DNA of 64,000 nt, taken from positions 62,001 through 126,000 of the forward strand of contig BPKO01000011.1 in the NCBI GenBank assembly GCA_026005175.1, read 5' to 3'. Shown here in pieces: positions 19,356 through 57,048 of the stretch. A model generated the notes under the pieces. That model was not told the origin of the DNA. It did not search any database and saw only the letters and a list, made by a program, of their open reading frames with translations. The DNA is from Candidatus Tectimicrobiota bacterium (lineage in GTDB: Bacteria > Tectomicrobia > Entotheonellia > Entotheonellales > Entotheonellaceae). Position numbers and translations under genes: made by a program. Numbering within the stretch: the first letter of the stretch is position 1; each line of letters opens with the position of its first letter.

Positions 19356-19371
19356 TGCAAGCCCCATACCA
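19356..19371 (-). promoter_or_regulatory. Sigma-54 promoter for the DUF5335-UspA operon
   Basis: On the minus strand the sequence is TGGTATGGGGCTTGCA, with TGG (-24) and TTGC (-12) separated by the required 8 bases. DUF5335 starts about 85 bases downstream. Two GACA-N3-TGTC sites lie about 70-110 bases upstream. Confidence 0.75.
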
Positions 19372-19438
19372 ACTCCTTCCTTTCTTGGCACCCCGTGGCG
19401 CCCGCTGCCGCGCAGCACTTGCGCGGCAGGCCACGGGC

Positions 19439-19469
19439 GACACGCTGTCACGCCCGGTGACAACCTGTC
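19439..19469. promoter_or_regulatory. Paired GACA-N3-TGTC upstream activator sites
   Basis: GACACGCTGTC at 19439-19449 and GACAACCTGTC at 19459-19469 are spaced 20 bp start to start, i.e. on the same DNA face. They lie between the minus-strand sigma-54 promoter and the plus-strand globin-kinase promoter and could serve either. Confidence 0.6.
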
Positions 19470-19489
19470 GGTTCCGGACAGCGACGCTT

Positions 19490-19518
19490 TTGACTTCTGC
19501 GGGCGCGTGGACTATGTT
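19490..19518 (+). promoter_or_regulatory. Sigma-70 promoter for the globin-coupled kinase
   Basis: TTGACT at 19490-19495, a 17-base spacer, and TATGTT at 19513-19518, with the gene starting 26 bases downstream. Confidence 0.6.
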
Positions 19519-19543
19519 AGTAAGGCCAGAGGAGAGCTCCCCT

Positions 19544-20977
19544 ATGACCTTTCAGCCAGAGCAGGCATGGCGGCAGCGGATTGCCGAGCTGGAAGCCGAA
19601 GTGGCGGCGCTGCGGCAGGAGCTGGCGCAGTACCGGCAGGAGGCCCCGGACGTTTCGCTAGATGCCGACGACCTGGCCGCGCGCAAGGCCTTTGTGGGCT
19701 TCGACGAAGACACCGCAGCGCAGCTGGCCGCCCTGCGGCCTTTTATGGAACGCGAAGTGGACGGCCTCGTCGAGGCCTTTTACGTGCACCTGCGCCGCTT
19801 TGCCCCCACGCGGCAGTACCTGGAGGACCCGCAGGTGCTGGCGCGCCTGCGCGCGGCGCAGACGGCGTACCTGCTTAGCCTCACCCAGGGAGTGTACGAC
19901 GAGGCCTACGCTCGTCAGCGGCTGCGCCTGGGCCAGACCCACTTCCGCATCCAGCTCACCCCGCGCTGGTTCCTGGGCGCCTACGCCGTGCTCTTTGACC
20001 TCATCGTGTCGCGCCTGCAGGCCCATTACGCGGGGCAGCCCGAGCGCCTGCTCGCGGCGGCGCGCGCCCTGTGCAAGGCGTTTATTCTCGACATGCAGCT
20101 TGCCGTGCAGGCTTACATCGATGCCTACCAGGCACAGCTGCGCCAGGCCAACGCCGCCTTGCAGCAGCACAGCGAGGAGCTGGAGCGCCGCGTCGCCAAG
20201 CGCACCGAGGAAGTGCTGCAGTCGGGCAAGCTGGCGGCCATCGGCGAGCTGGCCGCGGGGATTGCCCACGAAATCAACAACCCCATCAACGGCATCATGA
20301 ACTACGCCGAGATCATCGCCGAGGAGCTGCCCGAGGAGCACAAGCTCGGCGCCTACGCCCGCGAAATCGTCTTCGAAGCGCAGCGCATCGCCGAGATCGT
20401 CCGCGAGCTGCTCGCCTTTGCCCGCCAGGACACCCAGGAGCACAGCCCGGCCAACCTGGCCGACATCCTCGACGCCTCCCTCACCCTCATCGGCCGCCAC
20501 CTGGAAAAGGACGGCATCACCATTCGCCGCGAGTACAGCCACGACTTGCCCAAAATCAAGTGCCGCTCGCAGCTCATCCAGCAGGTGGTGCTCAACTTGT
20601 TGAGCAACGCCCACCATGCCCTCAACGCCCGCTATCCCACCTACGACCCCAACAAAATCGTGCGCATCCGCACCCGCCTCATCCGCAAAGGCGGCCGCCC
20701 GTACGTGCGCCTGTCGGTGCGCGACCACGGCATCGGCATCGATCCTGCCAACCGCGCCCGCATTTTCGAACCCTTTTTTACCACCAAACGCCACCAAGGG
20801 GGCACCGGCCTGGGCCTGAGCGTGAGCTACGGCATCATCGCCGAGCACCAAGGTACCATGAGCGTCGACAGCGTCCCCGGCGAGTACACGCAGTTTGACG
20901 TCGACTTGCCGGTGGACAACGGCTGGGAGACCATCGAAGGACTGGAAAGCGATGCCGCGGCTTCTGGTGGTGGATGA
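19544..20977 (+). CDS. Globin-coupled sensor histidine kinase
   Basis: The 477-residue soluble protein starts with a globin-coupled sensor domain (residues 40-195). The proximal heme ligand is H133 in GQTHFRIQLTPRWFLGAY, the classic GCS signature. A coiled coil (QLRQANAALQQHSEELERRV) leads to a dimerisation domain with H242 in GIAHEINNPING and an ATPase domain (NLLSNAHHAL, DHGIGIDPANR, GGTGLGLSVSYG). It should sense O2 or another heme ligand and pass phosphate to a response regulator. It overlaps the next gene, which begins with a receiver domain, by 26 bases. Confidence 0.9.
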   Translation: MTFQPEQAWRQRIAELEAEVAALRQELAQYRQEAPDVSLDADDLAARKAFVGFDEDTAAQLAALRPFMEREVDGLVEAFYVHLRRFAPTRQYLEDPQVLARLRAAQTAYLLSLTQGVYDEAYARQRLRLGQTHFRIQLTPRWFLGAYAVLFDLIVSRLQAHYAGQPERLLAAARALCKAFILDMQLAVQAYIDAYQAQLRQANAALQQHSEELERRVAKRTEEVLQSGKLAAIGELAAGIAHEINNPINGIMNYAEIIAEELPEEHKLGAYAREIVFEAQRIAEIVRELLAFARQDTQEHSPANLADILDASLTLIGRHLEKDGITIRREYSHDLPKIKCRSQLIQQVVLNLLSNAHHALNARYPTYDPNKIVRIRTRLIRKGGRPYVRLSVRDHGIGIDPANRARIFEPFFTTKRHQGGTGLGLSVSYGIIAEHQGTMSVDSVPGEYTQFDVDLPVDNGWETIEGLESDAAASGGG

Positions 20978-22419
20978 CGAGCGCAGCATCCGCGTCACCT
21001 TTCGCGACACCCTGAGCAAGCACGGCTACGAGGTCGACGTGGCCGCCGACGCGGAAGAGGCCTTGCGCCTGCTGGCGCAGCAGACTTACGACACCGTGTT
21101 GCTGGACATCGTCTTGCCGCGCATGAACGGCATCACCCTGCTGCAGCAGCTCAAAGAGCGCGACCCCGACGTGCCGGTGGTGATGATCACCGGCGACCCC
21201 CATCTGCAAACGGCCACCGAGGCGCTGCGCCTGGGGGCTTACGACTACTTGCAAAAGCCCATCAACCGCCGCACTCTGGTGCACGTGGTGCAGCGGGCCG
21301 TGGACCGCAGGCGGCTCATTGCCGAGAAAAAGGCGCTGGAAGCGCAGCTGGCGCTGCGGCTCAAAGAGTCGGAGGCGGCGTTTCGCCAGCTCATCGAGCA
21401 CTCCTCGGACATCATCCTCGGCCTCGACCTGGAAGGCCACGTGCTGGTCGTCAACCGCTCTCTCGAAACGGTGCTCGGCCACCCCCGCCACACCTGGCAC
21501 CACGTGGAGGTGCTGCTGCAGCACTGCCACCCAGAAGACACGGCGGCGCTGCAGCAGGCCCTGGCGCAAGCCGCCGGGAGCCACCCGGCGGGCGACCTGG
21601 AGGTGCGCCTGCGCCGCGCCGACGGCGCCTGGCTGTGGTTTTCCCTGGTGCTTTACCCCCTCATTCGCGAAGACGGCGCCATTTTCGGCATCGGCGGCAT
21701 CCTGCGCGACGTCACCATGCGCAAGCGCATGGAGCAGGAAATGCGCCACGCCGAGCGCCTGGCGCTGGTGGGGCAGCTGGCCTCGGGCCCTGGCGCACGA
21801 AATCGGCACCCCGCTCAACATCATCGCCGGCAACGCCGAGCTGCTGCGTATGGAGCTCGGCAGCGAAGGCACCCAGGCCACCGCCCTGCGCGCCATCATC
21901 GAGCAGGCCGACCGCATCACCCGCCTCATCGAGCGCCTGCTCACCTTGGCCCGCAGCAAGGAACAGCCCATGCAGCCGCTGTCCCTGCACGAGCCGCTGC
22001 AACACGCCCTGCGCCTGCTGGAAACGCGCTTTAGCCGCGAGGCCATCCGCGTCCACGTCGACGTGCCGCCGGACTTGCCCCCGGTGCAGGGCGCCGCCGA
22101 CCAGCTCTCGCAGGTTTTCCTCAATATTCTGGTCAACGCCTGGCACGCCATGCCCGAAGGCGGCTTGCTCACCATCGCCGCCCGCCAGACCGCGGAGGAC
22201 CGCGTGCGCCTTAGCTTTCGCGACACCGGGGTGGGCATGACCCCAGAGCAGCTGGCGCACGCCTTCGAGCCGTTTTACAGCACCAAAGGCGACAAGGGGA
22301 CCGGCCTGGGGCTGGCCATCTGCCAGCAGATCGTCTCCAACCACCGCGGCCACATCTGGCTAGAAAGCACCCCGGGCGCCGGCACCACGGTGACCATCGA
22401 GCTGCCGGTGGCCGTTTGA
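20952..22419 (+). CDS. Receiver-PAS-histidine kinase, frameshifted
   Basis: The first frame holds a receiver domain (VVDDERS, acceptor Asp in VLLDIVLPRMNG, Lys in LQKPINRR) and a PAS domain (DIILGLDLEGHVLVVNRS). Near 21788 an extra C in a CCC run shifts the frame; the second frame continues with the phospho-acceptor stretch ALAHEIGTPLNIIAGNAELL and an ATPase domain (NILVNAWHAM, DTGVGMTPEQL, GTGLGLAI). The full product would be about 488 residues. It lies directly after the globin kinase and is its likely phosphorelay partner, extending an oxygen signal to a further regulator not seen here. The shift is probably an assembly error. Confidence 0.8.
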
Positions 22420-22422
22420 TGC

Positions 22423-25218
22423 TCAGCCGGTAACGGGCGCCGCCAGGGCACGCTGCACGGCCGCGGCGAGCTCGCTGGCCACCAGAGGCTTGTAGAGAAA
22501 GCCCTGCAGGCCCAGGGCGGCGACTTTGGCCTCGCTCAGAGTGTGGCTAAAGCCGGTGCACAGGATGATGGGCAGGTCGGGGCGCAGGCGCCGCAGCTCC
22601 TGCACCAGCGCCTCGCCGGTCAGCTGCGGCATCGTCTGGTCGGTAATCACCAAGTCGAAGTCCTGCGGGGCGGCACGAAACGCCGCGAGCGCCTCCCGGC
22701 TGCTGGTGTAAGCCGTCACCTGGTAGCCCAGGTGGCTGAGCAGTTCTTGCCCTAGCTGCGCCAGCGCCGGCTCGTCGTCGACAAAGAGGATGCGCCCGCG
22801 GCCCTGCGGCAAGGGCTCTGCTGCCGCCGCGGCCGCGGCGGGGGCCGGGTCGGCCGGCGGCAAGTAGACGTCGAACGTCGTGCCCTGGCCAGGAGCGCTC
22901 TCTACGGTGATGGCGCCGCCATGGCCGGTGACGATGCCATGCACCACCGCCAAGCCCATGCCGGTGCCTTCGCCAGGCGCTTTGGTGGTAAAAAAGGGGT
23001 CAAAAATACGGGAGACGACCTCCGGCGGCATGCCGCAGCCGCTGTCGCGCACCCGCAGCCGCAGGTGCGCTCCCGGGCGCAGCGGCGGGTGGGCAGCGGC
23101 AAACTCGGGCGTCACCGCAACAGTGTCAAGGCCGATCTCCAGCACCCCGCCGGCCGGGCGCATGGCGTGCTCGGCGTTGGTGCAGAGGTTCATCAGCACC
23201 TGCTGCAGCTGCGTAGGGTCGGCGAGCACCGTGTCGGCCTCGGCCTCGAGCCGCAGGCGTAGCTCGACGGTGCTCGGCAGCGAGGCGCGCAGCAGCGTGA
23301 GCGCTTCCTGCACCAGCGGCCGCAGCCGCACCGGCTGGCGCTGCGGCGGGCGCTGGCGGCTGAAGGCCAGGATCTGCCGCACCAGGTCGCGGCCGCGCCG
23401 GCCAGCGGTGAGGATTTCCTGCACGTTGCACCACAGCGGCGACCCTTCCGGCACGTCGAAAAGCGCCAGCTCGGCATAGCCCAGGATGGCAGCCAGGATG
23501 TTGTTGAAGTCGTGGGCAATGCCGCCGGCCAGAGTGCCGATGGCCTCCATTTTCTGGGCTTGCAGCAGCTGCGCTTCGAGCCGCTTGCGCTCGCTGATGT
23601 CGAGCAGCGTCCCCAAAATGGCTGGCTGGCCCTCCCAGGTCACCACCGAGGCTACGGTTTCGAGCCAGATGGGGGTGCCGTCCTGCCGCACCCCTTGCCA
23701 CTCAAAGCGCGAAGGGACAGGCTCGCCGCGCAGCCGGGCGTCCCGGTAGCCCTCGAGCCGGGGGCGCTCGTGCGGCGCCATGAAGCGCCTGACGTCCTGG
23801 CCCAGGAGCTGGCGGGGATCGTCGTAGCCGAAAATGCGCGCGGCCGCCGGGTTGGCAAAGCGAATCATGTAGTCGTGGTGAATGACGATCCCCTGGATAG
23901 AGGCCTCCACCAGGGTGCGGTAGCGGGCTTCGCTGTCGCGCAGCGCCGCGTTGAGCTGGCGCAGGTTGGCAAAGAGCTGCGCATTTTCCAGCGCCACCGC
24001 CGCCTGTGCCGCAAAGAGCTGCAGCAGCTCCACCTCTTCGGGGGCAAAGGGGCCGGCGGCATCGCGGTAAACCACCAGCGCCCCCAGGGCCTCCTCGCCC
24101 CGCAGCAGGGGCACGGAGAGCACGGCGCGGTAGCCCTCGGCGGCCACCATGGCCCGCGTGTGCGGGGTGAGCTCGAAGGCAGGGTCGTTGAGCAAGTCGG
24201 CCGACCACACCGGGCGCCGCTCGGCAATGGCCCGCGCCGTGGTGCCGTCGCGCCAGTGGCGCGGCCGCAGGCGGCGCCGGAAGTCTTCGCTCAGGCCGCG
24301 CACGGCGACAAAGCGCAGCACCCCTTCCCCGCCCTCGCACTCCACTACCGCCAGTCCGGCGCGCTCGCTGCGCAGCAGGCGGCGGGCGTGCTCGACCACC
24401 AGCTCGAGCACCGCCTGTGGGTCGCGCGAGGCGGTGAGCGCCTGGCCCACTTCGGTGAGGGCGGCCAGCTCGGCCACGCGCTGGCGCAGCGCCTGCTCGA
24501 TGCGCTGCTGCGCGTGCAGCTGCTGCTCGAGCTGTGCCCGCGCTTCTTGCAGGCGCGCCCGGTCTGCTGCCAGCTCGCGCACCATGGCGTCGAAGGTGCG
24601 GCCCAGGCGTGCCACTTCGTCGCTGCCGGGCAGGGCTGCCGCCACCTGCCAGTCCCCGGCGGCAAGGCGCGCGGCCGCCCGGGCAAGGCGGTGCAGGCGC
24701 CGGGTGAGGACAAACCCCGTGGCCAGGCCGGCGGCGGCCAGGGCGGCCAGCCCTCCCAGGGCAAGGTGGATGCCGGCGTCGCGGGCCCGCTGCAGGGCTT
24801 GCTGCATGGGGGCGCGGGAGAAAGCCACGGCCACCGTGCCCAGGGAAGCGGCCGCGTTGCGCAGCTGTGCCCGGTGCCAGTCTCCGGAAACCCGCGCCAG
24901 CGGCGCTCCCAGCAGCGAGGCCTCCGTGCTTGCCACGATGCGCTGCCGGTGGTCGGCCACCACCGCGGCACGCACGTAGGGATTGCGCTGCACCTGCTCC
25001 AGGTAAAGCTGCAGCTCGGCGTAGTCGCCCGTCAGCAGCGCCGGGCGACTGGCCTCCTGCAGCAGCGAAAAGAGGGCCTGCTCGGTGGCGGTAAGCTGCT
25101 CAGTGGCAGCACGCTCGAGCAGCGCCAGCGTCTGCCACAACGCCAGGCCCATTGCCCCTGCCGCCAGCAAAACAATCGTCACGGCAATGCGGTAGCGCAG
25201 GGGTATGCGGAGCCTCAT
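22423..25218 (-). CDS. Hybrid sensor histidine kinase (HAMP-GAF-PAS-HK-receiver)
   Basis: The 931-residue protein has a transmembrane helix at 12-32, a periplasmic domain, a second helix near 150-170, a HAMP linker, a coiled coil, a GAF domain (about 255-400), a PAS domain (about 415-535), a dimerisation/ATPase core with [17 protein letters not shown] and [13 protein letters not shown], and a C-terminal receiver (Asp in [11 protein letters not shown]). ATG 25218 has GGGAGGAG upstream. Its first 119 bases lie inside the end of the PhnD-like gene. The binding protein probably presents a ligand to the periplasmic domain, as in other kinase/binding-protein pairs; the ligand is unknown. Confidence 0.88.
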
Positions 25219-30918: not shown

Positions 30919-30951
30919 GACAGCTTGTCCGCTGTCCCCTGACAGGATGTC
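30919..30951. promoter_or_regulatory. Paired GACA-N3-TGTC upstream activator sites
   Basis: GACAGCTTGTC at 30919-30929 and GACAGGATGTC at 30941-30951 are 22 bp apart, two helical turns, and end 55 bases before the sigma-54 promoter at 31006. Confidence 0.65.
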
Positions 30952-31005: not shown

Positions 31006-31021
31006 TGGTACGGGAGTTGCA
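31006..31021 (+). promoter_or_regulatory. Sigma-54 promoter for the aldolase-PFK-PEP synthase operon
   Basis: TGGTACGGGAGTTGCA has TGG and TTGC separated by 8 bases. The aldolase ATG lies 39 bases downstream. Confidence 0.75.
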
Positions 31022-31059: not shown

Positions 31060-31974
31060 ATGACCCAGACACGCGTGCAGGAGATCCTGAGCTGGTACGC
31101 CAGCGAGACGCCAGGGACGCGGGCCAACCTGGCGCGCCTTCTCAACCACGGGCGGCTGCGGGGCACCGGCCGGCTGGTGATTTACCCCGTGGACCAGGGC
31201 TTCGAGCACGGCCCGGGGCGCTCCTTTGCGCCCAACCCGCCGGCCTACGACCCGCTGTACCACTACGACCTCGCCCTGGAGGCCGGCTGCAGCGCTTACG
31301 CCGCGCCGCTGGGCTTTATCGAAGCGGCAGCGCAGTATGACCCCGGCGCCCTGCCGCTCATCCTCAAGCTCAACAGCCACGACGTGCTGCGCCACGAAGC
31401 CGATCCCCTGCCGGCCCTCACCGCCAGCGTGCAAGACGCCCTGCGCCTGGGCTGCGCCGCCATTGGGTTTACCATTTATCCGGGCTCGGCACAGCGCACG
31501 GTGATGTACGAGCAGCTGCGCGCCCTGGCCGCCGAGGCCAAGGCATGTGGGCTGGTGGTGGTGGTGTGGTCTTACCCGCGCGGCGCCGACCTCACCCCTG
31601 AGCAGGAAACCGCCGTCGACGTGGTGGCCTATGCCGCCCACATCGCCGCCCAGCTCGGCGCCCACATCATCAAAGTGAAGCTGCCCAGCGACCTGGTGGC
31701 CCAGGAGGCGGCGCGCCGCGCCTACCAGCACATTCCCATCGCCACCCTTGCCGAACGCGTGCGCCACGTGGTGCAGAGCGCTTTCAACGGCCGCCGCATC
31801 GTGGTCTTTTCCGGCGGCGAAAGTAAGGACCTCGACACCCTGCTGCACGAGGTGCAGGCCATCCGGGCCGGCGGCGGCTTTGGCTCGATCATCGGCCGCA
31901 ATACGTTCCAGCGCCCGCGCGCCGAAGCCCTGGACATGCTGGGCAAGATCATGGACATCTACGCCCAACCCTGA
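31060..31974 (+). CDS. fbaB: Class I fructose-bisphosphate aldolase (FbaB/DhnA type)
   Basis: The 304-residue TIM-barrel protein matches the archaeal-type class I aldolases that cleave fructose 1,6-bisphosphate through a Schiff base. LVIYPVDQGFEHGPGRSF near residue 40 is the family opening, the catalytic lysine is expected in HIIKVKLPSD, and VVFSGGESKD and GSIIGRNTFQRP form the phosphate site. It leads an operon with PFK and PEP synthase 10 and 13 bases apart, driven by the sigma-54 promoter just upstream. Confidence 0.92.
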   Translation: MTQTRVQEILSWYASETPGTRANLARLLNHGRLRGTGRLVIYPVDQGFEHGPGRSFAPNPPAYDPLYHYDLALEAGCSAYAAPLGFIEAAAQYDPGALPLILKLNSHDVLRHEADPLPALTASVQDALRLGCAAIGFTIYPGSAQRTVMYEQLRALAAEAKACGLVVVVWSYPRGADLTPEQETAVDVVAYAAHIAAQLGAHIIKVKLPSDLVAQEAARRAYQHIPIATLAERVRHVVQSAFNGRRIVVFSGGESKDLDTLLHEVQAIRAGGGFGSIIGRNTFQRPRAEALDMLGKIMDIYAQP

Positions 31975-31984
31975 AGGAGGCCCT

Positions 31985-33298
31985 ATGTCGCTGCCCGCCC
32001 CCGAGGCCTTGCGCATCGAGACCCTCGGCCCTTGCCGCATTCCCTCTCCCCTGCAAGGGGAGCGCTTCGTCGACGAGGCGCGCCGCGTGCTGGTGTGTAC
32101 GGACACGCAGCAGCTGGCGCCCTACCTGAAAGCAGGGGTGCAGCCCCCCGCCTTCGAGCTGGCCGGGCCGCGGGCGCAGATCTTCTTTCGCCCCGAGACC
32201 CTCACCTGCGGCATCGTCACCTGCGGCGGGCTGTGCCCGGGGCTCAACAACGTCATTCGGTCGCTCGTCCTGAGCCTGACGTACGCTTACGGCGTGCGGC
32301 GCATTCTCGGCTTTCGCTACGGCTATGCCGGCCTGGCCAGCAAAAGCGGCTATGCCCCGCTGGTGCTCACCCCCGAAGTGGTGGACACCATCCACGAGCA
32401 GGGCGGCACCTTGCTGGGCACCTCGCGCGGGCCGCAGGACGTGGCCGACATGGTCGACACCCTGGTGCGCTGGGACGTCGGCGTGCTGTTTGCCATTGGC
32501 GGCGATGGCACCCTGCGCGGCGCCGCTGCCCTGAGCCAGGAAATCGCCCGCCGCGGTCTGAAAATCGGCGTCGTCGGCATTCCCAAGACCATTGACAACG
32601 ACCTGGAGTGGATCGAGCGCAGCTTTGGCTTTGCCACCGCCGTGGAAGAAGCGCGGCGGGTGATCGTCGGCGCCCACGCCGAGGCGCGCGGCGCCTGGAA
32701 CGGCATTGGCCTGGTCAAGCTCATGGGGCGCCACTCGGGCTTCATCGCCGCCCACGCCAGCCTGGCCAACAGCGACGTCAACTTCTGCCTGGTGCCGGAA
32801 GTGCCCTTTACGCTTGAGGGCGAAGGCGGCTTCCTGCAGGCCCTGGAGCGGCGCCTCGAGCGCAAGCACCACGCGGTGGTCGTCGTGGCCGAGGGCGCCG
32901 GCCAGGAGCTGCTGCAAGACCCGGCGCGGGTGGAGCGTGACCCCTCGGGCAACATCCGCCTCAAAGACATCGGTGCTTACCTGCGCGACGAAATCGTGCG
33001 CTACTTTGCCCGGCGCCAGCTGCCAGTGACCGTCAAGTACATCGACCCCAGCTATACCATTCGCAGCTTGCCCGCCAACTCGCTCGATGCGGAGTACTGC
33101 CTGCTGCTCGGGCAGCATGCCGTGCACGCCGGCTTGGCCGGCCGCACCAACCTGGTGGTGGGCTACTGGAACCAGCACTTCACCCACGTGCCCATCGCGC
33201 TGGCCGTGGCACGGCGCAAGCAGCTCGACCCCCAGGGCGAAACCTGGCAGCGCGTCCTGGAGGCCACCGGCCAGCCGGCCAGCCTGGTGGGCCACTGA
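31985..33298 (+). CDS. 6-phosphofructokinase, plant-like ATP-type
   Basis: The 437-residue enzyme phosphorylates fructose 6-phosphate. The nucleotide site reads IGGDGTLRGA, with Gly at the position that is Asp in PPi-dependent enzymes, and the substrate loop reads IPKTIDNDLEW, with Lys where the E. coli enzyme has Gly. That combination is known from the long plant-like (group III) ATP-PFKs; a PPi preference cannot be excluded. LVKLMGRHSGFIA is the family signature. RBS GAAGGAGG precedes ATG 31985. Confidence 0.9.
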   Translation: MSLPAPEALRIETLGPCRIPSPLQGERFVDEARRVLVCTDTQQLAPYLKAGVQPPAFELAGPRAQIFFRPETLTCGIVTCGGLCPGLNNVIRSLVLSLTYAYGVRRILGFRYGYAGLASKSGYAPLVLTPEVVDTIHEQGGTLLGTSRGPQDVADMVDTLVRWDVGVLFAIGGDGTLRGAAALSQEIARRGLKIGVVGIPKTIDNDLEWIERSFGFATAVEEARRVIVGAHAEARGAWNGIGLVKLMGRHSGFIAAHASLANSDVNFCLVPEVPFTLEGEGGFLQALERRLERKHHAVVVVAEGAGQELLQDPARVERDPSGNIRLKDIGAYLRDEIVRYFARRQLPVTVKYIDPSYTIRSLPANSLDAEYCLLLGQHAVHAGLAGRTNLVVGYWNQHFTHVPIALAVARRKQLDPQGETWQRVLEATGQPASLVGH

Positions 33299-33311
33299 GG
33301 AGGAGGAGACG

Positions 33312-35726
33312 ATGCCACAGAAGGCGTATATCCGCTGGTTTGCCGAGCTCAGCCTCGACGAGGTGGCCGAGGTGGGAGGCAAAAACGCCTCCCTGGGAGA
33401 GCTGTACCGCGAGCTCACCCCCAAGGGAATCAAGGTGCCCAACGGCTTTGCCATTACCGCCACCGCGTACCGCCGCTTTCTTGAGGCTGCCGGGCTCGAC
33501 ACCCAGATCCGCGACTTGCTGCGCGACCTTGACACCCGCGACATCGCCGACTTACGCCAGCGCGGCCGCCGCGTGCGCCAGGCCATCCTGGCCGCGCCTT
33601 TACCCTCTGACGTGGAAGCGGCCATTCTTGAGGCCTACGACAAGCTCGGCGAGGGCAGCCCCGAGCCCGTGGACGTGGCGGTGCGCAGCAGCGCCACTGC
33701 CGAAGACCTGCCCGACGCCAGCTTTGCGGGGCAGCAAGAGACTTACCTCAACGTGCAAGGGCACACGGCGCTGCTTAGCGCCTGCAAGCGCTGCTTTGCC
33801 TCGCTGTTTACCGACCGTGCCATTTCCTACCGTGCCGACCGCGGCTTCGACCACTTCTCGATTGCCCTCTCGGTGGGCGTGCAGCGCATGGTGCGCTCGG
33901 ACTTGGCCGCTGCCGGGGTGATGTTCACCCTCGACACGGAAACCGGCTTCCGCGATGTGGTGCTCATCAACGCTTCCTACGGCCTGGGCGAGACCGTGGT
34001 GCAGGGCAAAGTAACCCCCGATGAGTACTACGTCTTCAAGCCCACCTTGCGTCAGGGCTACCGGCCCATCCTGCGCAAGAAGCTGGGCAGCAAGGAATTC
34101 AAGCTCGTTTACGACGTGGGTGGCGGGCGCATGGTGCGCGACGTGCCCGTGCCCCTGCACGAGCGCCAGCGCTACGCCCTGAGCGATGACGACATTCTTA
34201 CCCTGGCGCGCTGGGGCTGCCTCATCGAAGACCACTACAGCGCGCGGCGCGGCCGCCCCACGCCCATGGACATCGAGTGGGCCAAGGACGGCCGCAGCGG
34301 CGAGCTCTTCGTGGTGCAGGCGCGGCCAGAGACGGTGCAGGCGCGCAAGTCCCTCGACACGCTAGAGCTCTACCGCCTGGAGCAGCGCGGCCCGGTGCTG
34401 CTGCAAGGCCAGAGCGTCGGCGACAAAATCGCCAGCGGCCCGGTGCGCATCGTCAAAGACGTCAGCCAGCTGCCGGACTTCCAGGAAGGGGAGGTGCTGG
34501 TCACCGACATGACCGACCCCGACTGGGAGCCGGTGATGAAAAAAGCCGCCGCCATCGTCACCAACCGCGGCGGCCGCACCTGCCACGCCGCCATCGTCAG
34601 CCGCGAGCTGGGGCTGCCGGCGGTGGTGGGCACCGAGCGCGCCACCGAGGTGCTGCGCCCGGGCCAGGTGGTGACCGTCTCCTGCGCCGAGGGGAACACC
34701 GGCTACGTCTACGACGGCAAGCTGCCGTTCCGCGTCGAGCGCGTCGACCTCAAGGGGCTGCCGCGGCCCAAGACGCAGGTGATGATGAACGTGGGCAACC
34801 CGGAAAATGCCTTTGCCTTATCCTTTTTGCCCAACGACGGCGTGGGCCTGGCGCGCGAGGAGTTCATCATCAGCACGTATATCGGCATCCACCCCCTGGC
34901 TCTGCTCGAGTACGACCGCCTCGACGACGCGGCGCTTAAAGCCGAGATCGACCGCCGCACCGCCGGCTACCAGGACAAGCCGCAGTTTTTCGTCGACCGC
35001 CTGGCCGAAGGCGTGGCCATGATCGCCGCCGCCTTTTATCCCAAAGACGTCATCGTGCGCCTGAGCGACTTCAAGTCCAACGAGTACGCCAACCTCCTTG
35101 GCGGCCGGCGCTACGAGCCAGAAGAAGAAAACCCCATGCTGGGCTTTCGCGGCGCTTCGCGCTACTACGACCCGCGCTACCGCGAGGGCTTTGCCCTGGA
35201 GTGCCGCGCCATGCGCAAGGTGCGCCAGGAAATGGGGCTGACCAACGTCAAGCTGATGATTCCCTTCTGCCGCACCGTGGAAGAGGCGCGGCGGGTGCAG
35301 GAAGAGATGGCCCGCCACGGCCTGCGCCGCGGCGAGGAGGGGCTGGAGCTCTACGTGATGTGCGAGATCCCGAGCAACGTCATCCTCGCCGACGCCTTTG
35401 CCGAGGTCTTCGACGGCTTCTCCATCGGCTCCAACGACCTGACGCAGCTGGTGCTGGGGGTGGACCGCGACTCGGGCCTGGTGGCCCACCTTTTTGACGA
35501 GCGCAATCCGGCAGTAAAGCGCATGATTGCCAGCGTCATCGGCACCGCCAAGGCCAAAGGCCGCAAAATCGGCATCTGCGGCCAGGCGCCCAGCGATTAT
35601 CCCGACTTTGCGCAGTTTCTCGTCGAGCAAGGCATCGACAGCATCTCCCTCAACCCCGATGCCGTGCTCAAGACCACGCTGGCCATTCTGGAAATGGAAA
35701 AACGGCTGGCAGCCAAGAGCGCCTGA
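33312..35726 (+). CDS. ppsA: Phosphoenolpyruvate synthase
   Basis: The 804-residue protein has the three PpsA domains: ATP-grasp (residues 1-360, AEVGGKNASLGELYREL, VRSSATAEDLPDASFAGQQE), the swivelling phosphohistidine domain (catalytic His in GGRTCHAAIVSRELGLPAV) and the C-terminal TIM barrel (MIPFCRTVEEA, FSIGSNDLTQLVLGVDRD). It makes PEP from pyruvate and ATP. Its presence in one operon with PFK and aldolase means glycolytic and gluconeogenic enzymes are induced together, as seen in stress regulons rather than carbon-source operons. Confidence 0.95.
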   Translation: MPQKAYIRWFAELSLDEVAEVGGKNASLGELYRELTPKGIKVPNGFAITATAYRRFLEAAGLDTQIRDLLRDLDTRDIADLRQRGRRVRQAILAAPLPSDVEAAILEAYDKLGEGSPEPVDVAVRSSATAEDLPDASFAGQQETYLNVQGHTALLSACKRCFASLFTDRAISYRADRGFDHFSIALSVGVQRMVRSDLAAAGVMFTLDTETGFRDVVLINASYGLGETVVQGKVTPDEYYVFKPTLRQGYRPILRKKLGSKEFKLVYDVGGGRMVRDVPVPLHERQRYALSDDDILTLARWGCLIEDHYSARRGRPTPMDIEWAKDGRSGELFVVQARPETVQARKSLDTLELYRLEQRGPVLLQGQSVGDKIASGPVRIVKDVSQLPDFQEGEVLVTDMTDPDWEPVMKKAAAIVTNRGGRTCHAAIVSRELGLPAVVGTERATEVLRPGQVVTVSCAEGNTGYVYDGKLPFRVERVDLKGLPRPKTQVMMNVGNPENAFALSFLPNDGVGLAREEFIISTYIGIHPLALLEYDRLDDAALKAEIDRRTAGYQDKPQFFVDRLAEGVAMIAAAFYPKDVIVRLSDFKSNEYANLLGGRRYEPEEENPMLGFRGASRYYDPRYREGFALECRAMRKVRQEMGLTNVKLMIPFCRTVEEARRVQEEMARHGLRRGEEGLELYVMCEIPSNVILADAFAEVFDGFSIGSNDLTQLVLGVDRDSGLVAHLFDERNPAVKRMIASVIGTAKAKGRKIGICGQAPSDYPDFAQFLVEQGIDSISLNPDAVLKTTLAILEMEKRLAAKSA

Positions 35727-38353: not shown

Positions 38354-38364
38354 GACAGGTTGTC
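38354..38364. promoter_or_regulatory. GACA-N3-TGTC upstream activator site
   Basis: GACAGGTTGTC lies 89 bases before the sigma-54 promoter at 38453; a degenerate second half-site (GACGCCCTGCA) starts 21 bases further upstream. Confidence 0.6.
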
Positions 38365-38452: not shown

Positions 38453-38468
38453 TGGCACGGAAGTTGCT
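38453..38468 (+). promoter_or_regulatory. Sigma-54 promoter for the P-ATPase operon
   Basis: TGGCACGGAAGTTGCT matches the sigma-54 consensus at every conserved base, with 8 bases between TGG and TTGC. Confidence 0.8.
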
Positions 38469-41370: not shown

Positions 41371-41404
41371 TGTTGTACAGAGGCTTGCGGCAAGGAGCGG
41401 TCTC

Positions 41405-43249
41405 ATGCCCCGCGCACGCTGGACGCTGGAGCAGGCTTACCGGCAGGCGCTTGACTTCTTCGGCGGCGACGACTTGCGCGCCGAGGTGTTCGTGCACCGC
41501 TATGCCCTGCGCGACCTGGAGGGGCGCTGGCTGGAGGCCACGCCGGAGATGCTGTGGCAGCGGCTGGCGCAGCACCTGGCGCGGCCGGAAAAGGACCGCG
41601 GGCGCTGGCAGCAGCGCTTCTTTGCCCTGCTGGCGGAGTTTCGCTTTGTGCCCGGCGGCCGCATCCTCTTTGCCACCGGCAATCCGCGGCGCGCCACCCT
41701 CTTTAACTGCTACTTCATCCCCATTGCCTCGGACTCGGTCTACGGCATCACCCGCTGGATGTTCGAGGCCTCCAAGACCTACAGCGCCGGCGGCGGCGTG
41801 GGTACCAACATCGACGTGCTGCGCCCCCGCGGCGCCAGAGTGCGCAACGCCGGCCTGGAGAGCTCGGGTTCGGTGAGCTTCATGGAGGTTTTCTCCACCC
41901 TCACCGGCGTCATGGGCATCTCCGGAGGCCGCCGCGGCGCCTTGATGATCACCACGCGGGTGGACCACCCTGACATCCTGGAGTTTATTCGCTGCAAGAG
42001 CGATCCGGCCCGCAGCCGGGTGCGCAACGCCAACATCTCGGTGCGCGTCTCCGATGCCTTCATGCATGCCGTCGACGCCGATGCCCCCTGGCACCTGAGG
42101 TTTACCACCCCGCACGAGACCCTTGTCCGCCAGGTGCCGGCGCGGCAGGTGTGGGACGCCCTGGTGGAGGCGGCCTGGCTTTCTGCCGAGCCCGGCTTGC
42201 TCTTTTGGGATACCATCCAGCGCTTCTCCACCACCCAGTACCACGGCATGGAGGTGCAGGGGGTCAACGTTTGCGGCGAGGTGCCCATGGAGCCCTACGG
42301 TGCCTGTAACCTGGGCAGCCTCAACCTTGCCGCGTTTGTGCGCCAGCCTTTTACCCCGCAGGCAGACGTCGACTGGGAGGCGCTGGAAACCGCGGTCCAC
42401 GACGCGGTGCGCTTTCTCGACAACGTCATCGACGTGGGCGCCCCGCGCCACCCCCTGCGCCTACAGCGCCTGGAATCCGAAAAAACCCGCCGCATCGGCC
42501 TGGGGGTGATGGGGCTGGCCGACGCCCTGGTCATGCTCGGGCACCGCTACGACGGCGAGGCGGCCCGGCGCTGGGTGGAGACGTGCTTTGCCTTTCTCAA
42601 ACGCCACGCCTATGCTGCCAGCATCGAGCTGGCGCGGGAAAAGGGCAGCTTTCCCGCCTTTGCCGCCGAAGCTCACCTGCGCCAGCCCTTCCTGCACACC
42701 CTGCCCGCCGAGCTGCAGCGGGCCATCCGCCGCTACGGGCTGCGCAACGCGGCCCTGCTCTCCGTGGCGCCTACTGGCTCGATTTCCATTCTGGCCGGGG
42801 TGTCAAGCGGCATCGAGCCCATTTTTGCCTTGCAGTACCTGCGCCACGTCGCCGACAAGGCATACCGCGTCTGGCACCCCCTGGTGCAGCGCTACCGCGC
42901 CGTGCACGGCGAGGAAGCCCCGCTGCCCGAGACCTTTGTCACCGCCCATCAAGTCGACCCCCTGGCGCGCGTGGCGCTGCAGGCCTGTGCCCAGGCGCAC
43001 GTCGACCAGAGCATCTCTTCCACCATCAACTTGCCAGAAGCCACCCCGGTAGCCACGGTGGCGCGCATTTTCCGCGCCGCCTGGCAGCAAGGCTGCAAGG
43101 GCATCACCGTCTTTCGCGAAGGAAGCCGCAGCGCCATCGTCGAGCCCCTCGACGCCGCCGCCACGGCGTTTGCCACCGAGAAGGCCTCTCCCGTTGGCGT
43201 CTGTACGTTTTGCGAGCTGCCGCCGGCAGCCCCCGGCAAAGGAGCCTGA
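41405..43249 (+). CDS. nrdJ: Adenosylcobalamin-dependent (class II) ribonucleotide reductase
   Basis: The 614-residue enzyme reduces ribonucleotides without oxygen dependence. It shows RATLFNCYFIP (first active-site Cys), SAGGGVGTNIDVLRPRG, GACNLGSLNL and PTGSISILAGVSSGIEPIF, the nucleotide and radical-site motifs, and a short C-terminal cysteine pair in VCTFCEL. It is on the short side for the family. Its place behind a stress-induced pump supports use under low oxygen. Confidence 0.92.
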   Translation: MPRARWTLEQAYRQALDFFGGDDLRAEVFVHRYALRDLEGRWLEATPEMLWQRLAQHLARPEKDRGRWQQRFFALLAEFRFVPGGRILFATGNPRRATLFNCYFIPIASDSVYGITRWMFEASKTYSAGGGVGTNIDVLRPRGARVRNAGLESSGSVSFMEVFSTLTGVMGISGGRRGALMITTRVDHPDILEFIRCKSDPARSRVRNANISVRVSDAFMHAVDADAPWHLRFTTPHETLVRQVPARQVWDALVEAAWLSAEPGLLFWDTIQRFSTTQYHGMEVQGVNVCGEVPMEPYGACNLGSLNLAAFVRQPFTPQADVDWEALETAVHDAVRFLDNVIDVGAPRHPLRLQRLESEKTRRIGLGVMGLADALVMLGHRYDGEAARRWVETCFAFLKRHAYAASIELAREKGSFPAFAAEAHLRQPFLHTLPAELQRAIRRYGLRNAALLSVAPTGSISILAGVSSGIEPIFALQYLRHVADKAYRVWHPLVQRYRAVHGEEAPLPETFVTAHQVDPLARVALQACAQAHVDQSISSTINLPEATPVATVARIFRAAWQQGCKGITVFREGSRSAIVEPLDAAATAFATEKASPVGVCTFCELPPAAPGKGA

Positions 43250-43250
43250 C

Positions 43251-44264
43251 GTGCAGGTGGCCGTGTTCAGCACCCGCTCTTACGACCGCACGTTTCTCGA
43301 GGCGGCCAACGCCCAGTTCGGCCATGCCCTGTCGTACTTTGCAGCGCGCCTCGACGCCACCACGGCAGAGCTGGCGCGCCCTTTTCCGGCCGTCTGCGTC
43401 TTTGTCCACGACGACCTGGGGGCTGCCACCCTGGAGCGGCTGGCAGCGGGCCAGACGCGCTTCATTGCCCTGCGCTGCGCGGGCTTTAACCAAGTCGACC
43501 TGCGTGCTGCGGCACGGCTGGGGTTCACCGTCTGCAACGTGCCGGCCTACTCCCCGCACGCCATTGCCGAGCACACCGTAGGCCTCATGCTCACCCTCAA
43601 CCGCAAGCTCCACCGCGCCTACTTGCGCGTCCGTGACGGCAACTTTTCCCTTGAGAACCTGCTGGGCTTTGACATGCACGGCAAGACGGTGGGCATTGTC
43701 GGCACGGGCAAAATCGGGGCGGTGGTGGCCCGCATCCTGCTGGGCTTTGGCTGCCGGGTGCTGGCTTACGACCCTTACCCCGATGACGCGCTGCGCGCCT
43801 TGGGCGTGACCTACACGGCGCTCGAGGCGCTGCTGTCGCAAGCCGATATTGTTACCCTGCACTGCCCGCTCACGCCGCAGACCCACCATCTCATCGACGC
43901 CCAGGCCATTGCGCGCATGAAGGACGGCGTGATGCTGATCAATACCAGCCGCGGCGCGGTGATCGATACCGTGGCCGTCATCGAGGCGCTCAAGCGTCAG
44001 AAAATCGGGGCGCTGGGCCTTGACGTCTACGAGGAAGAAGAGCGCTACTTTTACGAGGACCTCTCGGCCCAGATCATCGAAGACGACGTGCTGGCCCGTC
44101 TTCTCACTTTCCCCAACGTGGTGATCACCGCGCACCAGGCCTTTTTCACCCGCGAAGCGATGCACGCCATTGCCCACACCACCCTGCGCAACCTCTGGCA
44201 GCTCGAGCGCGGCGAGCCCTGCCCGCACCTGGTGACCGCCGAGCGCTACCTGGCGGCAGGCTAA
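43251..44264 (+). CDS. ldhA: D-lactate dehydrogenase (LdhA type)
   Basis: The 337-residue D-2-hydroxyacid dehydrogenase has the NAD-binding loop GIVGTGKIGAVVARIL and catalytic residues in RCAGFNQVD (Arg), GLDVYEEEERYFYED (Glu region) and ITAHQAFFTREA (His). The latter two stretches are specific to fermentative LdhA. It reduces pyruvate to D-lactate to regenerate NAD+. Starts with GTG directly after the RNR gene with RBS AAAGGAG. Confidence 0.9.
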   Translation: MQVAVFSTRSYDRTFLEAANAQFGHALSYFAARLDATTAELARPFPAVCVFVHDDLGAATLERLAAGQTRFIALRCAGFNQVDLRAAARLGFTVCNVPAYSPHAIAEHTVGLMLTLNRKLHRAYLRVRDGNFSLENLLGFDMHGKTVGIVGTGKIGAVVARILLGFGCRVLAYDPYPDDALRALGVTYTALEALLSQADIVTLHCPLTPQTHHLIDAQAIARMKDGVMLINTSRGAVIDTVAVIEALKRQKIGALGLDVYEEEERYFYEDLSAQIIEDDVLARLLTFPNVVITAHQAFFTREAMHAIAHTTLRNLWQLERGEPCPHLVTAERYLAAG

Positions 44265-51915: not shown

Positions 51916-51951
51916 ACCCCCTGCTCCTCTTGCCTCGTACGCACCCACGAA

Positions 51952-51967
51952 AGCAAAAACCATACCA
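51952..51967 (-). promoter_or_regulatory. Sigma-54 promoter for the AhpD-like gene
   Basis: On the minus strand the sequence is TGGTATGGTTTTTGCT, with correct -24/-12 spacing. No GACA-N3-TGTC site is visible within the short divergent region. Confidence 0.65.
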
Positions 51968-52795: not shown

Positions 52796-52805
52796 GGGAA
52801 TCCGT

Positions 52806-53573: not shown

Positions 53574-53626
53574 GACGCCGCTTCCTGGTGGCTTACATTC
53601 GCCGCCTGGCCGCCGCGGTGCCATAG

Positions 53627-56080
53627 TTAGGAAGCGCTGCCCGTCTCTGAGGCCTCGGCCGGCTTGGCGCCGTCGACGCTGCGCTCGCCAAAGGCCACGA
53701 TGTCGCGCGCCAGCTGCTGCAAGCGGGCGTTGACCAGGTAGTGCACGGTGCCCGGGGTGTGCACGTCGCCGGCTGGCACGCCGGTGAGCAGCTCCAGGCC
53801 CTGGTCGACATGGGTGATAGGGTAGATGTGAAAGCGCCCGGCGCGGATGGCCTCCACCACGTCGGGGCGCAGCATGAGGTGGCGCACGTTGGCCTGGGGA
53901 ATGATCACCCCCTGGGTGCCGGTGAGGCCGCGCTCGGTGCAGACGTCGTAAAAGCCTTCGATTTTCTCGTTGACGCCGCCAATGGCCTGGATGTCGCCCC
54001 ACTGGTTCACCGAGCCGGTCACCGCCAGGTCCTGGCGCACCGGCAGGTTGGCCAGGCGCGACAGCAGGGCGTAGAGCTCGGTCGAGGAGGCGCTGTCGCC
54101 TTCCACGCCGCTGTAAGACTGCTCGAAGCACAGGCTCGCCGACAGGGTGAGCGGCTTGTCCTGAGCGTACATCTGGCGCAGGTAGCCGGCGAGAATGAGC
54201 ACGCCCTTGTCGTGGGTGCTGCCGCTCAGCCGGGCTTCGCGCTCGATGTTGATGATGCCGCTGCGCCCCATGGCCGCCGTGGCCGTGACGCGCGAGGGGC
54301 GGCCGAAGGTGTGGTCGCCCAGCTGGATCACCGACAGCCCGTTGACTTGCCCCACGCGGCGGCCCTCGGTGTCGATGAGCACCGTGCCCTGGAGGATAAG
54401 CTCGCGCACTTTTTCCTCCAGGCGGTTGGCGCGAAACGTGCGGGCCTGCAAGGCCTGCTCCACGTGGCGGCGGCCGACCACCGCTGCCCCTTCCTGGGCG
54501 GCCAAGAAGCTCGCCTCGCGCACCACGTCGGCCAGCACCGTGAACTGGCTGGCCAGCTTTTCCTGATCCTCGACGCGGCGCATGCCGTACTCGATCACCG
54601 CCGCCACGCCGCTGCGGTCGAAGTGCTTGAGGTTTTCATCGCGGCACAGGCGGGCGATGAAGTGGGCGTAGCTGGCCTCGTGCGCCGCGGTGCGCGCCAT
54701 GTCAAAGCCAAAGTCGGCCTTGATCTTGAAGAGGTGCTGGAAGTCCGGGTCGAGGAAGTAAAGCAAGTAGTAGAGCCAGGGGTGGCCGGTAACCACGATT
54801 TTGGTCTGGATGGGAATGGGCTCGGGCTGCAGCGCCGAGATGGTAAACAGGGCAAAGGGGTCGTAGGCTTCGATTTTGAGCTGGCGGCTCTGCATGGTGC
54901 GCTTGAGCGTCTTCCACACCAAGGGCTCGGTGAGGGCGTCTTCGAGGTTGAAGAGGATAAAGCCGCCGCTGGCGCGCAGCAGCGACCCCGCCTTGATGCG
55001 CGTGAAGTTGGTCACCAGGCGGCCGTGGGGATCGACAACGCGGTCGATGGTGCCAAAGAGGCTCTTGTACGTAGGGGTATCCTCGACGATCACCGGCGCG
55101 CCCTGGGTGTCGCTGTTGTCGACGAGGACGTTGATCCGGTACTCGAGGAAGGGCTCTTCGCCGGGCGGCAAGGGGAGGGGCAGCTGCGGCGGTGGCTGGG
55201 GGGCCCGCTCCTTGAAGCGGTCGAGGTGCGACAGCATGTGCTCCTGCACCGCGTCGAGGTAGCGCTGCACGTGCGCCTGCGGATGGCGCCGCTTGAGCTC
55301 GCCGATCATGGGGGCAATAATCATGGCGCTGAAGCTGCGCTCGATCTGGCGCACCTCCTCGGCCAGCTGCTGCATGAGCAGCCGCTGTCGCACCATGACG
55401 TTGCGAAACTCCCGCAGCACTTCCGCCTCGCGCTGCCCCAGCTCGCGCCGCTGCTCCTCGCTGAGCTGCTGCACCTCTTCGGGGGTCATGGGGCGGTCGC
55501 CCCGCAAGGGAATGAAAAGCACGTTGCCCATGGGGTCGACTTGCAGGGCAAAGCCTCGCTCGCGGGCAAAGCGGGCAAAGGCTTCCTGCAGCTGGCGCAC
55601 TTCGCGCTCGTACTTCTCGCTCAGCTCGCGCTGCTCGCGCTCGAAGGCTTCTTCGCGAAAGGCCTTGGGCAGGGCCTCGCGCAGGTGAGCCACCAGGCGC
55701 TCCATGTCGTGCTGCAGCCGCCGCCCCTGGCCGGGCTCCAGGGCCAGCGCCTGGGGCTGGTCGGGGTTGCGGAAGTTGTGCACGTAGACCCAGTCCCCCG
55801 GCGTGGGCAGGGAAGCGGCGCGCTGGCGCAGCAGGGCCACGATTTGCGCCTGCGCCTCCGTGCCTTCCAGGCCGCAGACAAAGATGTGGTACCCTGCCTG
55901 GTCCATGCCCAGCCCGGTGTGCAGCGCCTGCACGGCGCGCTCTTGCCCCACCAGGTCGGTCAGGGGCGGCAGCTCGGCGGTGGTGGCAAACGGCAAGGTG
56001 CTGAGGTCCACGGTGCGGCGCGCCTCTTCGGCGGTGAGCTCGCGCACCGCGGCAGCAGCCGCAGGGTTCTTTTCTGCCAT
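53627..56080 (-). CDS. Lon-like ATP-dependent protease (LonC/AAA_32 type)
   Basis: The 817-residue protein belongs to the Lon-related branch with a degenerate N-terminal AAA region (DLVGQERAVQALHTGLGMDQ, GYHIFVCGLEGTEAQ in place of a clean Walker A), a long coiled coil (residues 150-260) and a C-terminal Lon protease domain with Ser-Lys dyad (Ser in GDSASSTELYALLS, Lys in IGGVNEKIEGFYDVC). It probably degrades damaged proteins. It lies directly behind Hsp20, forming a heat and protein-damage unit under the sigma-54 promoter at 56863. Confidence 0.88.
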   Translation of the reverse strand: MAEKNPAAAAAVRELTAEEARRTVDLSTLPFATTAELPPLTDLVGQERAVQALHTGLGMDQAGYHIFVCGLEGTEAQAQIVALLRQRAASLPTPGDWVYVHNFRNPDQPQALALEPGQGRRLQHDMERLVAHLREALPKAFREEAFEREQRELSEKYEREVRQLQEAFARFARERGFALQVDPMGNVLFIPLRGDRPMTPEEVQQLSEEQRRELGQREAEVLREFRNVMVRQRLLMQQLAEEVRQIERSFSAMIIAPMIGELKRRHPQAHVQRYLDAVQEHMLSHLDRFKERAPQPPPQLPLPLPPGEEPFLEYRINVLVDNSDTQGAPVIVEDTPTYKSLFGTIDRVVDPHGRLVTNFTRIKAGSLLRASGGFILFNLEDALTEPLVWKTLKRTMQSRQLKIEAYDPFALFTISALQPEPIPIQTKIVVTGHPWLYYLLYFLDPDFQHLFKIKADFGFDMARTAAHEASYAHFIARLCRDENLKHFDRSGVAAVIEYGMRRVEDQEKLASQFTVLADVVREASFLAAQEGAAVVGRRHVEQALQARTFRANRLEEKVRELILQGTVLIDTEGRRVGQVNGLSVIQLGDHTFGRPSRVTATAAMGRSGIINIEREARLSGSTHDKGVLILAGYLRQMYAQDKPLTLSASLCFEQSYSGVEGDSASSTELYALLSRLANLPVRQDLAVTGSVNQWGDIQAIGGVNEKIEGFYDVCTERGLTGTQGVIIPQANVRHLMLRPDVVEAIRAGRFHIYPITHVDQGLELLTGVPAGDVHTPGTVHYLVNARLQQLARDIVAFGERSVDGAKPAEASETGSAS

Positions 56081-56083
56081 GCT

Positions 56084-56516
56084 TCACCTCCCCGAAGGAG
56101 ACGGGCGGCGCTTTTTGGGCAAGGTGACGGTGAGGATGCCGGACTGAAAGCGCGCCCGGATCCCTTCCTGATCCACCGTCTCGGGCAAGCGCAGCTGGCG
56201 CTCGAAGCGGCCGTAGCTCAGCTCCCGGTGCAGGAAGTGGCAGCCGCGCTGCTCCACCAGCGAGCGGCGCTCGCCTCGGATGCGCAAGGTGTCGCCTTCC
56301 ACTTCCACAGCCACGTCCTTGCGCGTCACGCCGGGAAGCTCGACTTCGATGACGTAAGCGTCCTCCGTCTCTCCGATGTTAACGCGTGGCTGCCACTGCT
56401 CGACCCTGGACTCGCCGCCGCCCCAGGCCCTGGTGGATGAGCTCGTGGAAGAGCCGGCGCACTTCCTCCTGCACCTGCACGCGCATCGGCCATCCCTGCC
56501 ACCTCTCTTCTGCCAT
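56084..56516 (-). CDS. Hsp20 small heat shock protein, frameshifted
   Basis: ATG 56516 (AAGGAGG upstream) opens a short helical N-terminus (MRVQVQEEVRRLFHELIHQG) that shifts frame at a GGGG run near 56428. Dropping one G gives GLGGGESRVEQWQPRVNIGE, then the alpha-crystallin domain (AYVIEVELPGVTRKDVAVEV, SYGRFERQLRLPETVD) and the I-x-V motif GILTVTLPKKRR. About 143 residues, normal size. Holdase chaperone; the shift is probably an assembly error. Confidence 0.85.
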
Positions 56517-56577
56517 CGACTGCCTCCTTGTACCGGTACTCCTTAGCAGTGCGCCAGCAACGGCGCCTTCTCATCGC

Positions 56578-56826
56578 TCAGGGCGCCTCATCGGCCGCAA
56601 GCGGATGATCCTCGCGGAAGCTGGCGGCATCCATTTTCCCGGTGAGCATGGCCCGCAAGGCGTGCGGGTGCACCAGCACCGAGAGGTAAACATGGGCCAC
56701 TACGGCGGCACTGAGCAGCACCGCCAGGGCGGTGTGCACGATGTAGACGACCACGTCCCAGCGCGCGCCCAGCTTTCCGGGATAGTAAAGCAAGAGCCCC
56801 GAAAGGGCAACCGCCCCACTTCCCAC
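56578..56826 (-). CDS. Truncated cytochrome b subunit (formate dehydrogenase gamma-like)
   Basis: 82 residues from GTG 56826 cover two helices (ALSGLLLYYPGKLG; VYIVHTALAVLLSAAVVAHV) and a soluble tail (LRAMLTGKMDAASFREDHPL) that match the C-terminal half of FdnI/FdhC-type cytochrome b. The heme-ligand His is in the second visible helix. The first two helices are missing. A sigma-54 promoter lies 37 bases upstream, so the fragment may still be expressed, or the promoter now serves Hsp20 and Lon. Confidence 0.6.
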   Translation of the reverse strand: MGSGAVALSGLLLYYPGKLGARWDVVVYIVHTALAVLLSAAVVAHVYLSVLVHPHALRAMLTGKMDAASFREDHPLAADEAP

Positions 56827-56862
56827 CGCAGGCGCATCTCTCCCTTTATAGTGAAGGCCACA

Positions 56863-56878
56863 GGCAAGCGGCGTGCCA
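56863..56878 (-). promoter_or_regulatory. Sigma-54 promoter for the cytochrome b-Hsp20-Lon operon
   Basis: On the minus strand TGGCACGCCGCTTGCC matches the consensus at all conserved positions. Activator sites lie 56-86 bases upstream at 56934-56964. Confidence 0.75.
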
Positions 56879-56933
56879 GAAGGCAGAGCGCCGTGCCGCG
56901 CTTCACCGTCTGGCAAGTGCGGATCCCTGGGGC

Positions 56934-56964
56934 GACAACCTGTCACCAGAGGCGACAGAGGGTC
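56934..56964. promoter_or_regulatory. Paired GACA-N3-TGTC upstream activator sites
   Basis: GACAACCTGTC at 56934-56944 is perfect; GACAGAGGGTC at 56954-56964 is degenerate and starts 20 bp later. They lie between two divergent sigma-54 promoters. Confidence 0.6.
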
Positions 56965-57032
56965 GGACACGTTGGCAGGCGACGGGAAAGCCGGGCGTGC
57001 TGGCCGCTCCTGCGGCCACGGGGTAAATTATA

Positions 57033-57048
57033 TGGCAAGGAAGTGGCT
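57033..57048 (+). promoter_or_regulatory. Probable sigma-54 promoter for the FmdB gene
   Basis: TGGCAAGGAAGTGGCT keeps GG and GC at the right distance but has TGGC in place of TTGC. The FmdB ATG is 32 bases downstream. Confidence 0.5.

Follow-up and report, generated by a model that had tools for sequence, protein, structure and literature searches.

The stretch of DNA analysed here (the window, 64,000 nucleotides) is part of a 4.0-Mb, 14-contig metagenome-assembled genome (MAG) of a Candidatus Tectimicrobiota bacterium, which is 77% complete (hereafter G000, with C2, C6, C11 and C12 among its contigs). Several gene groups in the window are preceded by -24/-12 promoters of the sigma-54 type and, further upstream, by the palindrome GACA-N3-TGTC, which an initial annotation had proposed as the activator site (operator) of an undescribed regulon.

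Paired palindromes and -24/-12 promoters in the window

On the minus strand, genes for a DUF5335 protein (18916..19272) and a tandem universal stress protein (USP; 18064..18912) follow a -24/-12 promoter at 19357-19371 (TGGTATGGGGCTTGC), behind which a proximal operator copy lies at 19439..19449 (GACACGCTGTC), 67 bp from the -24 box, and a distal copy 20 bp away at 19459..19469 (GACAACCTGTC). On the plus strand, a distal copy at 30919..30929 and a proximal copy at 30941..30951, 54 bp from the -24 box, precede the promoter (31006..31020) of an operon for a DeoC/LacD-type aldolase, phosphofructokinase (PFK) and PEP synthase (31060..35726). A single good copy at 38354..38364, 88 bp from the -24 box and with a poor partner (three mismatches), precedes the promoter (38453..38467, plus strand) of an operon encoding a cation P-type ATPase, a ribonucleotide reductase and a D-2-hydroxyacid (LdhA-type) dehydrogenase (38647..44264, plus strand). 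The minus-strand promoter at 56864..56878 serves a group comprising a cytochrome b561 fragment, an Hsp20 fragment and a LonB-like protease (53627..56826, minus strand; frames partly broken), with an operator copy at 56934..56944, 55 bp from the -24 box, and, 20 bp further on at 56954..56964, a second copy that deviates at one position (GACAGAGGGTC). The latter also stands 68 bp before a plus-strand element at 57033..57047 that, by eye, keeps GG-N10-GC and loses TTGC, and that may be a weak divergent promoter.

Thus, the promoters initially annotated at 19356, 31006, 38453, 51952 and 56863 were recovered, several of them with coordinates off by one, and only that at 57033 proved weak. The palindrome reported upstream of 19356, 31006, 38453 and 56863/57033 was confirmed in its exact form except at 56954, and the two-copy arrangement stands as tandem pairs except at 38354. 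The promoter at 51952 had also been listed; this good -24/-12 element (51953..51967, minus strand), belonging to a carboxymuconolactone decarboxylase family gene, falls outside the regulon because no palindrome lies near it.

Enrichment and geometry of the operator

The window holds six exact copies of GACA-N3-TGTC (19439, 19459, 30919, 30941, 38354 and 56934) against 0.36-0.39 expected, and each of them stands 30-100 bp upstream of TGG-N8-TTGC, an arrangement found in none of 200 dinucleotide-preserving shuffles of the window; palindrome pairs at 17-25 bp did not arise in these shuffles either. The strict promoter pattern TGGYAY-N5-TTGC occurs seven times in the window (0.5 expected), and 5/7 occurrences coincide with reported promoters. 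Genome-wide, where the mirror pattern of the palindrome served as control, we counted 53 palindromes versus 22 mirror copies, 9 exact pairs versus 0, and 12 versus 0 cases in which TGG-N8-TTGC follows within 40-70 bp, bearing out the predicted enrichment before sigma-54 promoters. In approximately 530 kb of G000 sequence examined in detail, consisting of stretches picked around sites and around genes for sigma-54 activators (enhancer-binding proteins, EBPs), promoter-linked copies accounted for 23/37 non-coding and 0/14 coding palindromes (Fisher P 6e-5). The copies without a promoter, 14 non-coding and 14 coding, indicate that background palindromes exist; nevertheless, the window and genome-wide counts refute the idea that the sites are chance palindromes in GC-rich intergenic DNA, to which we assign practically no probability.

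Promoter-linked sites are concentrated on C11, at C2:264-304 kb and at C6:109-122 kb. The unit is a tandem pair with copies 19-24 bp apart, and 5/7 lone copies in G000 have a partner of at most one mismatch at 20-22 bp; distances from site to promoter cluster near 42, 55, 67 and 88 bp. An EBP-controlled sigma-54 regulon is expected to have its activator sites within a narrow range of distances upstream of the promoter, as is the case here, and a sigma-54 regulon with a common activator site is strongly supported. A regulon of this kind, run by an NtrC-type activator, is already known as a type; the operator, geometry, target set and cross-phylum spread appear undescribed in the literature searched. 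In agreement with the initial failure to recognise the site, no description of the operator was found in open PMC text, the only literature searched, in the forms tried, although E. coli GlrR has the same half-sites, arranged otherwise. NorR likewise uses an 11-bp palindrome with a 3-bp centre in several copies per promoter; however, its half-sites are GTCA-N3-TGAC, and it carries a GAF sensor domain instead of a receiver.

Target genes and a globin-coupled kinase

Outside the window, site and promoter precede genes for a molybdopterin oxidoreductase (C2:264 kb), a Metal_resist protein (C2:272 kb), a UspA-UspA-AAA_33-UspA run (C2:289 kb; single-domain UspA genes named from sequence) and GAPDH with a regulator (C2:292 kb; GAPDH named likewise). 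At C2:303 kb, a NAPRTase gene followed by those for a baeRF protein and an HPF/cold-shock protein lies on the minus strand, and a glycosyltransferase gene followed by an FtsH-like gene, identified from sequence, on the plus strand. On C11, further targets are a PAS-LuxR regulator at 22.9 kb and, at 147 kb (C11:147192, L037), an RpoS/RpoD-like sigma factor with Hsp20 behind it. Those on C6 are a CBS protein (109.8 kb), a UspA read from sequence (111 kb) and a Sec-type nitrous oxide reductase, NosZ (121.8 kb; C6:121799, L055), which looks broken in the assembly. In the sister genome G001, from another genus, a DUF5335-like gene is likewise preceded by tandem sites and a -24/-12 element.

The predicted functions of this wider membership are in keeping with a programme for low oxygen, dormancy and stress, extending the dormancy or hypoxia programme suggested at first. 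The sigma factor at C11:147192 raises the possibility of a sigma cascade; in the Borrelia Rrp2-RpoN-RpoS pathway, a sigma-54 response-regulator promoter similarly feeds an RpoS-type factor, whereas in G000 such a factor is only one among many outputs. The low-oxygen regulons of FixLJ/FixK and DosR share the target classes USP, Hsp20 and high-affinity or anaerobic respiration, but are sigma-54 independent and use other operators.

Divergent from the DUF5335 gene lies a gene for a globin-coupled histidine kinase (Protoglobin-HisKA-HATPase; 19544..20977, plus strand); by eye, its promoter (TTGACT-17-TATGTT, 19490-19518) is sigma-70-like rather than of the -24/-12 kind. The kinase gene is followed in an NmpS-like arrangement by that for a REC-PAS protein (20952..22034, plus strand), probably the beginning of a hybrid kinase that a frameshift interrupts in the assembly. 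Since the globin-coupled kinase adjoins one site pair, oxygen is plausible as the inducing signal. The protoglobin kinase was also considered as a universal partner of the site and was rejected, most site-bearing genomes having no strong protoglobin match. The frameshift-split genes, namely GAPDH with the regulator (C2:292210-294644), the hybrid kinase (window 20952-22034) and NosZ (L055:13990-14965), are probably assembly errors.

Candidate activator and rival regulators

G000 contains ten strong sigma-54 activator matches, none within the window. Among them, C2:293236-294644 is the only one for which we found a site and a -24/-12 promoter at the head of the operon, so that the search for an activator gene sharing the site, as anticipated in the initial annotation, yielded a candidate. 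It encodes an NtrC-type response regulator (REC-AAA-Fis), and the receiver, the AAA+ domain with GAFTGA and the Fis helix-turn-helix are all present both in G000, in two frames, and in an intact G001 ortholog. In this closest site-bearing relative the latter, 65% identical, is encoded downstream of a site, a promoter and the CbpA and CbpM genes, and the candidate's operon thus carries site and promoter in two genera. The assignment is also favoured by G002 and G003, sister genomes of the same family as G000, which have rpoN but in which neither pair sites nor an ortholog of the candidate were found. We consider it probable (approximately 0.7) that the sites define one sigma-54 regulon activated by an NtrC-family response regulator, most likely C2:293236-294644. 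An AAA_33 kinase protein lies near this regulator in both genera (L262:9149-10714; L049:10026-11591), and its N-terminal part is APH-like in G001.

From the observed sites, promoters, geometry, enrichment, targets and gene linkage, we infer how binding, activator, signal and kinase partner may fit together. Dimers of the response regulator would bind GACA-N3-TGTC, and a pair of dimers seated on tandem copies, which at 19-24 bp lie roughly two helix turns from each other, would nucleate the ATPase ring, which would contact sigma-54 polymerase at the -24/-12 element, mostly 41-88 bp downstream, and open the promoter. The activator would be the product of C2:293236-294644, which belongs to the same gene run as UspA-UspA-AAA kinase-UspA-GAPDH and is preceded by a copy of the site of its own. 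The activator may be phosphorylated when oxygen or energy falls, with the globin-coupled kinase at 19544 as the best sensor candidate. The output would comprise stress proteins, chaperones, proteases, glycolysis and fermentation, as well as ribosome hibernation, anaerobic respiration and the RpoS-like sigma factor.

Gene neighbourhoods elsewhere offer a parallel. The CbpA-CbpM linkage of the candidate's operon is shared with rhizobial chaperone islands. On five contigs from Rhizobium, Mesorhizobium, Bradyrhizobium and Frateuria, the site-carrying island also encodes a related EBP, which is the candidate's best match in 3/5 genomes. The order DnaK-CbpA-CbpM-EBP-kinase was found in all three islands mapped gene by gene, and in Carboxydocella the candidate's best match adjoins a site. 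The rhizobial islands are an analogy rather than proof, since the site-linked EBPs fall into separate clades whose deep branching order the tree does not settle.

Several points weigh against the assignment to C2:293236-294644. The gene is split by a frameshift in this assembly, even though the G001 ortholog is intact, and no kinase is linked to it. Two sister genomes are few for a phylogenetic profile, which besides suits three other EBPs about equally well. Furthermore, the site-linked EBPs form three well-supported clades, with no settled order among the G000, proteobacterial and Bacillota regulators, and the notion that the site marks a single EBP clade across phyla is accordingly not supported. 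A single activator, which would bind all sites, as originally proposed, is still the best reading in G000; in other phyla several EBP clades are linked to the same operator. Finally, neither rpoN nor its neighbour lptB was detected in the incomplete MAGs G000 and G001, whereas rpoN is present in G002, G003 and G004. Given the ten activators and the intact -24/-12 elements, an assembly gap in G000 and G001 is likelier than a real loss of rpoN in both.

We also weighed other regulators already known or present in the genome. The enterobacterial GlrR/QseF system likewise combines sigma-54 with a response regulator, and the GlrR operator consensus has the half-sites TGTC and GACA (PMC8745638); the tandem pairs contain TGTC-N8..13-GACA internally, and the EBP at C2:9.3 kb, in a glrK-glrG-glrR-like locus, is 59.8% identical to E. 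coli GlrR, with an ortholog in G001 and no reciprocal match in G002 or G003. However, E. coli glmY has TGTC-N10-GACA three times and GACA-N3-TGTC not at all, the G000 ortholog has two TGTC-N10-GACA sites of its own beside glrR (C2:9258 and 9314; L041), again with no GACA-N3-TGTC, and within the regulon it is the N3 unit that is constant and the outer gap that varies. Eight TGTC-N10-GACA copies occur in the fetched G000 sequence, two inside pairs, two at the glrR-like locus and four elsewhere. This difference in operator arrangement makes GlrR a highly improbable owner of the sites; E. coli-type GlrR operators are, on sequence grounds, apparently conserved in this distant lineage. Control by another G000 EBP, for instance those at C2:129 kb and C12:70 kb, or by one missing from the assembly, is unlikely as well: each of these two has a G001 ortholog (64%) and none that is clear in G002/G003, and an incomplete MAG may lack the true activator, yet no site occurs within the approximately 5 kb read on each side of either gene.

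The closest functional parallel is NmpRSTU of Myxococcus xanthus, in which an NtrC-like regulator acts with sigma-54 at paired sites, its operon is autoregulated, and the hypoxia-induced targets include USP, CBS and P-type ATPase proteins (PMC11841059, PMC6211767). Such target classes recur in G000, and the protoglobin kinase (as NmpU) followed by the REC-PAS part of a probable NmpS-like hybrid kinase, its kinase part lost to the frameshift, lies beside one site pair. An oxygen relay with NmpR itself as activator nevertheless seems very unlikely. The NmpR operator is GCGCA-N5-TGCGC, in sites 14-15 bp apart, and pairs of it do not precede the promoters here, only 1/24 G000 matches preceding a strict -24/-12 element; the kinase operon at 19544 is under the sigma-70-like promoter; most site-bearing genomes are without a strong protoglobin match; and the locus has no double-REC NmpT between two kinase genes. 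The G000 targets also extend beyond those of NmpR to glycolysis, chaperones, NosZ and the RpoS-like sigma factor.

Separately, an exact NmpR-type site (19410-19424) that forms part of a longer inverted repeat is present beside the NmpU-like kinase gene, in the gap from the operator pair to the DUF5335 -24/-12 promoter; the window has three GCGCA-N5-TGCGC sites against 1.05 expected.

The module in other organisms

A scan of 84,980 species genomes for the pair and promoter pattern returned at least 115 stretches, mostly from Rhizobiales, and the site thus recurs across phyla and is not special to the G000 organism. Among the matches listed, other carriers are Zoogloea, Frateuria, Nitrospira, Acidobacteria, Bdellovibrionales, Bacteroidales, Akkermansia, Phycisphaerae, Desulfosporosinus, Carboxydocella and Aneurinibacillus. 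In 108 distinct related promoters from these matches, found with a pattern that itself permitted gaps of 40-70 and spacings of 18-24, the distance from site to -24 box falls within 52-56 bp in 95, smaller groups lying at 41-46 and 66-68, and the copies are centred 20-23 bp apart in 101; the G000 sites have the same spacings. A role for IHF between site and promoter was considered and set aside: an exact IHF consensus lies at a near-fixed place there in 27/107 related promoters (0.16 in shuffles) but in none of 23 G000 promoters. Of 35 genomes compared, 27 contain the site-promoter pattern and none contains its mirror; with 28 of the 35 picked for carrying the module, the mirror count is the informative part of this comparison.

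Genes downstream elsewhere, as read from sequence, include those for ClpB, DnaK, GroES, Hsp20, SodB, HdeD and an OFA-type MFS protein. In B. diazoefficiens, blr4653 (J-domain), bll4644 (USP) and blr4659 (PFK-type) are microoxia-induced and listed as targets of neither NifA nor FixK2 (PMC6515984); they are possible members of such a regulon. More tentatively, GACA-N3-TGTC pairs with -24/-12 promoters may mark a widespread sigma-54 response to low oxygen and protein damage, run by orphan or island-borne NtrC-type regulators, that brings the major chaperones ClpB, DnaK, GroES and Hsp20, together with dormancy factors, under sigma-54 control across many phyla, in parallel with FixK, DosR and RpoH. 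Sigma-54 is usually associated with functions in nitrogen, in motility and at the cell exterior. With its fixed geometry, the operator would predict joint activation of particular chaperones, stress proteins and anaerobic enzymes, and would make the regulon definable at once in hosts that can be cultured, among them Bradyrhizobium and Rhizobium; a target list and a candidate regulator are supplied here as well.

The palindrome also occurs in another setting. In genome G026 (C2:135935 and C3:120218; L280, L281), three GACA-N3-TGTC copies follow one another in 22-bp steps, in opposite orientations at the two places, with neither a -24/-12 element nor an EBP close by; these tandem palindromes are probably another element.

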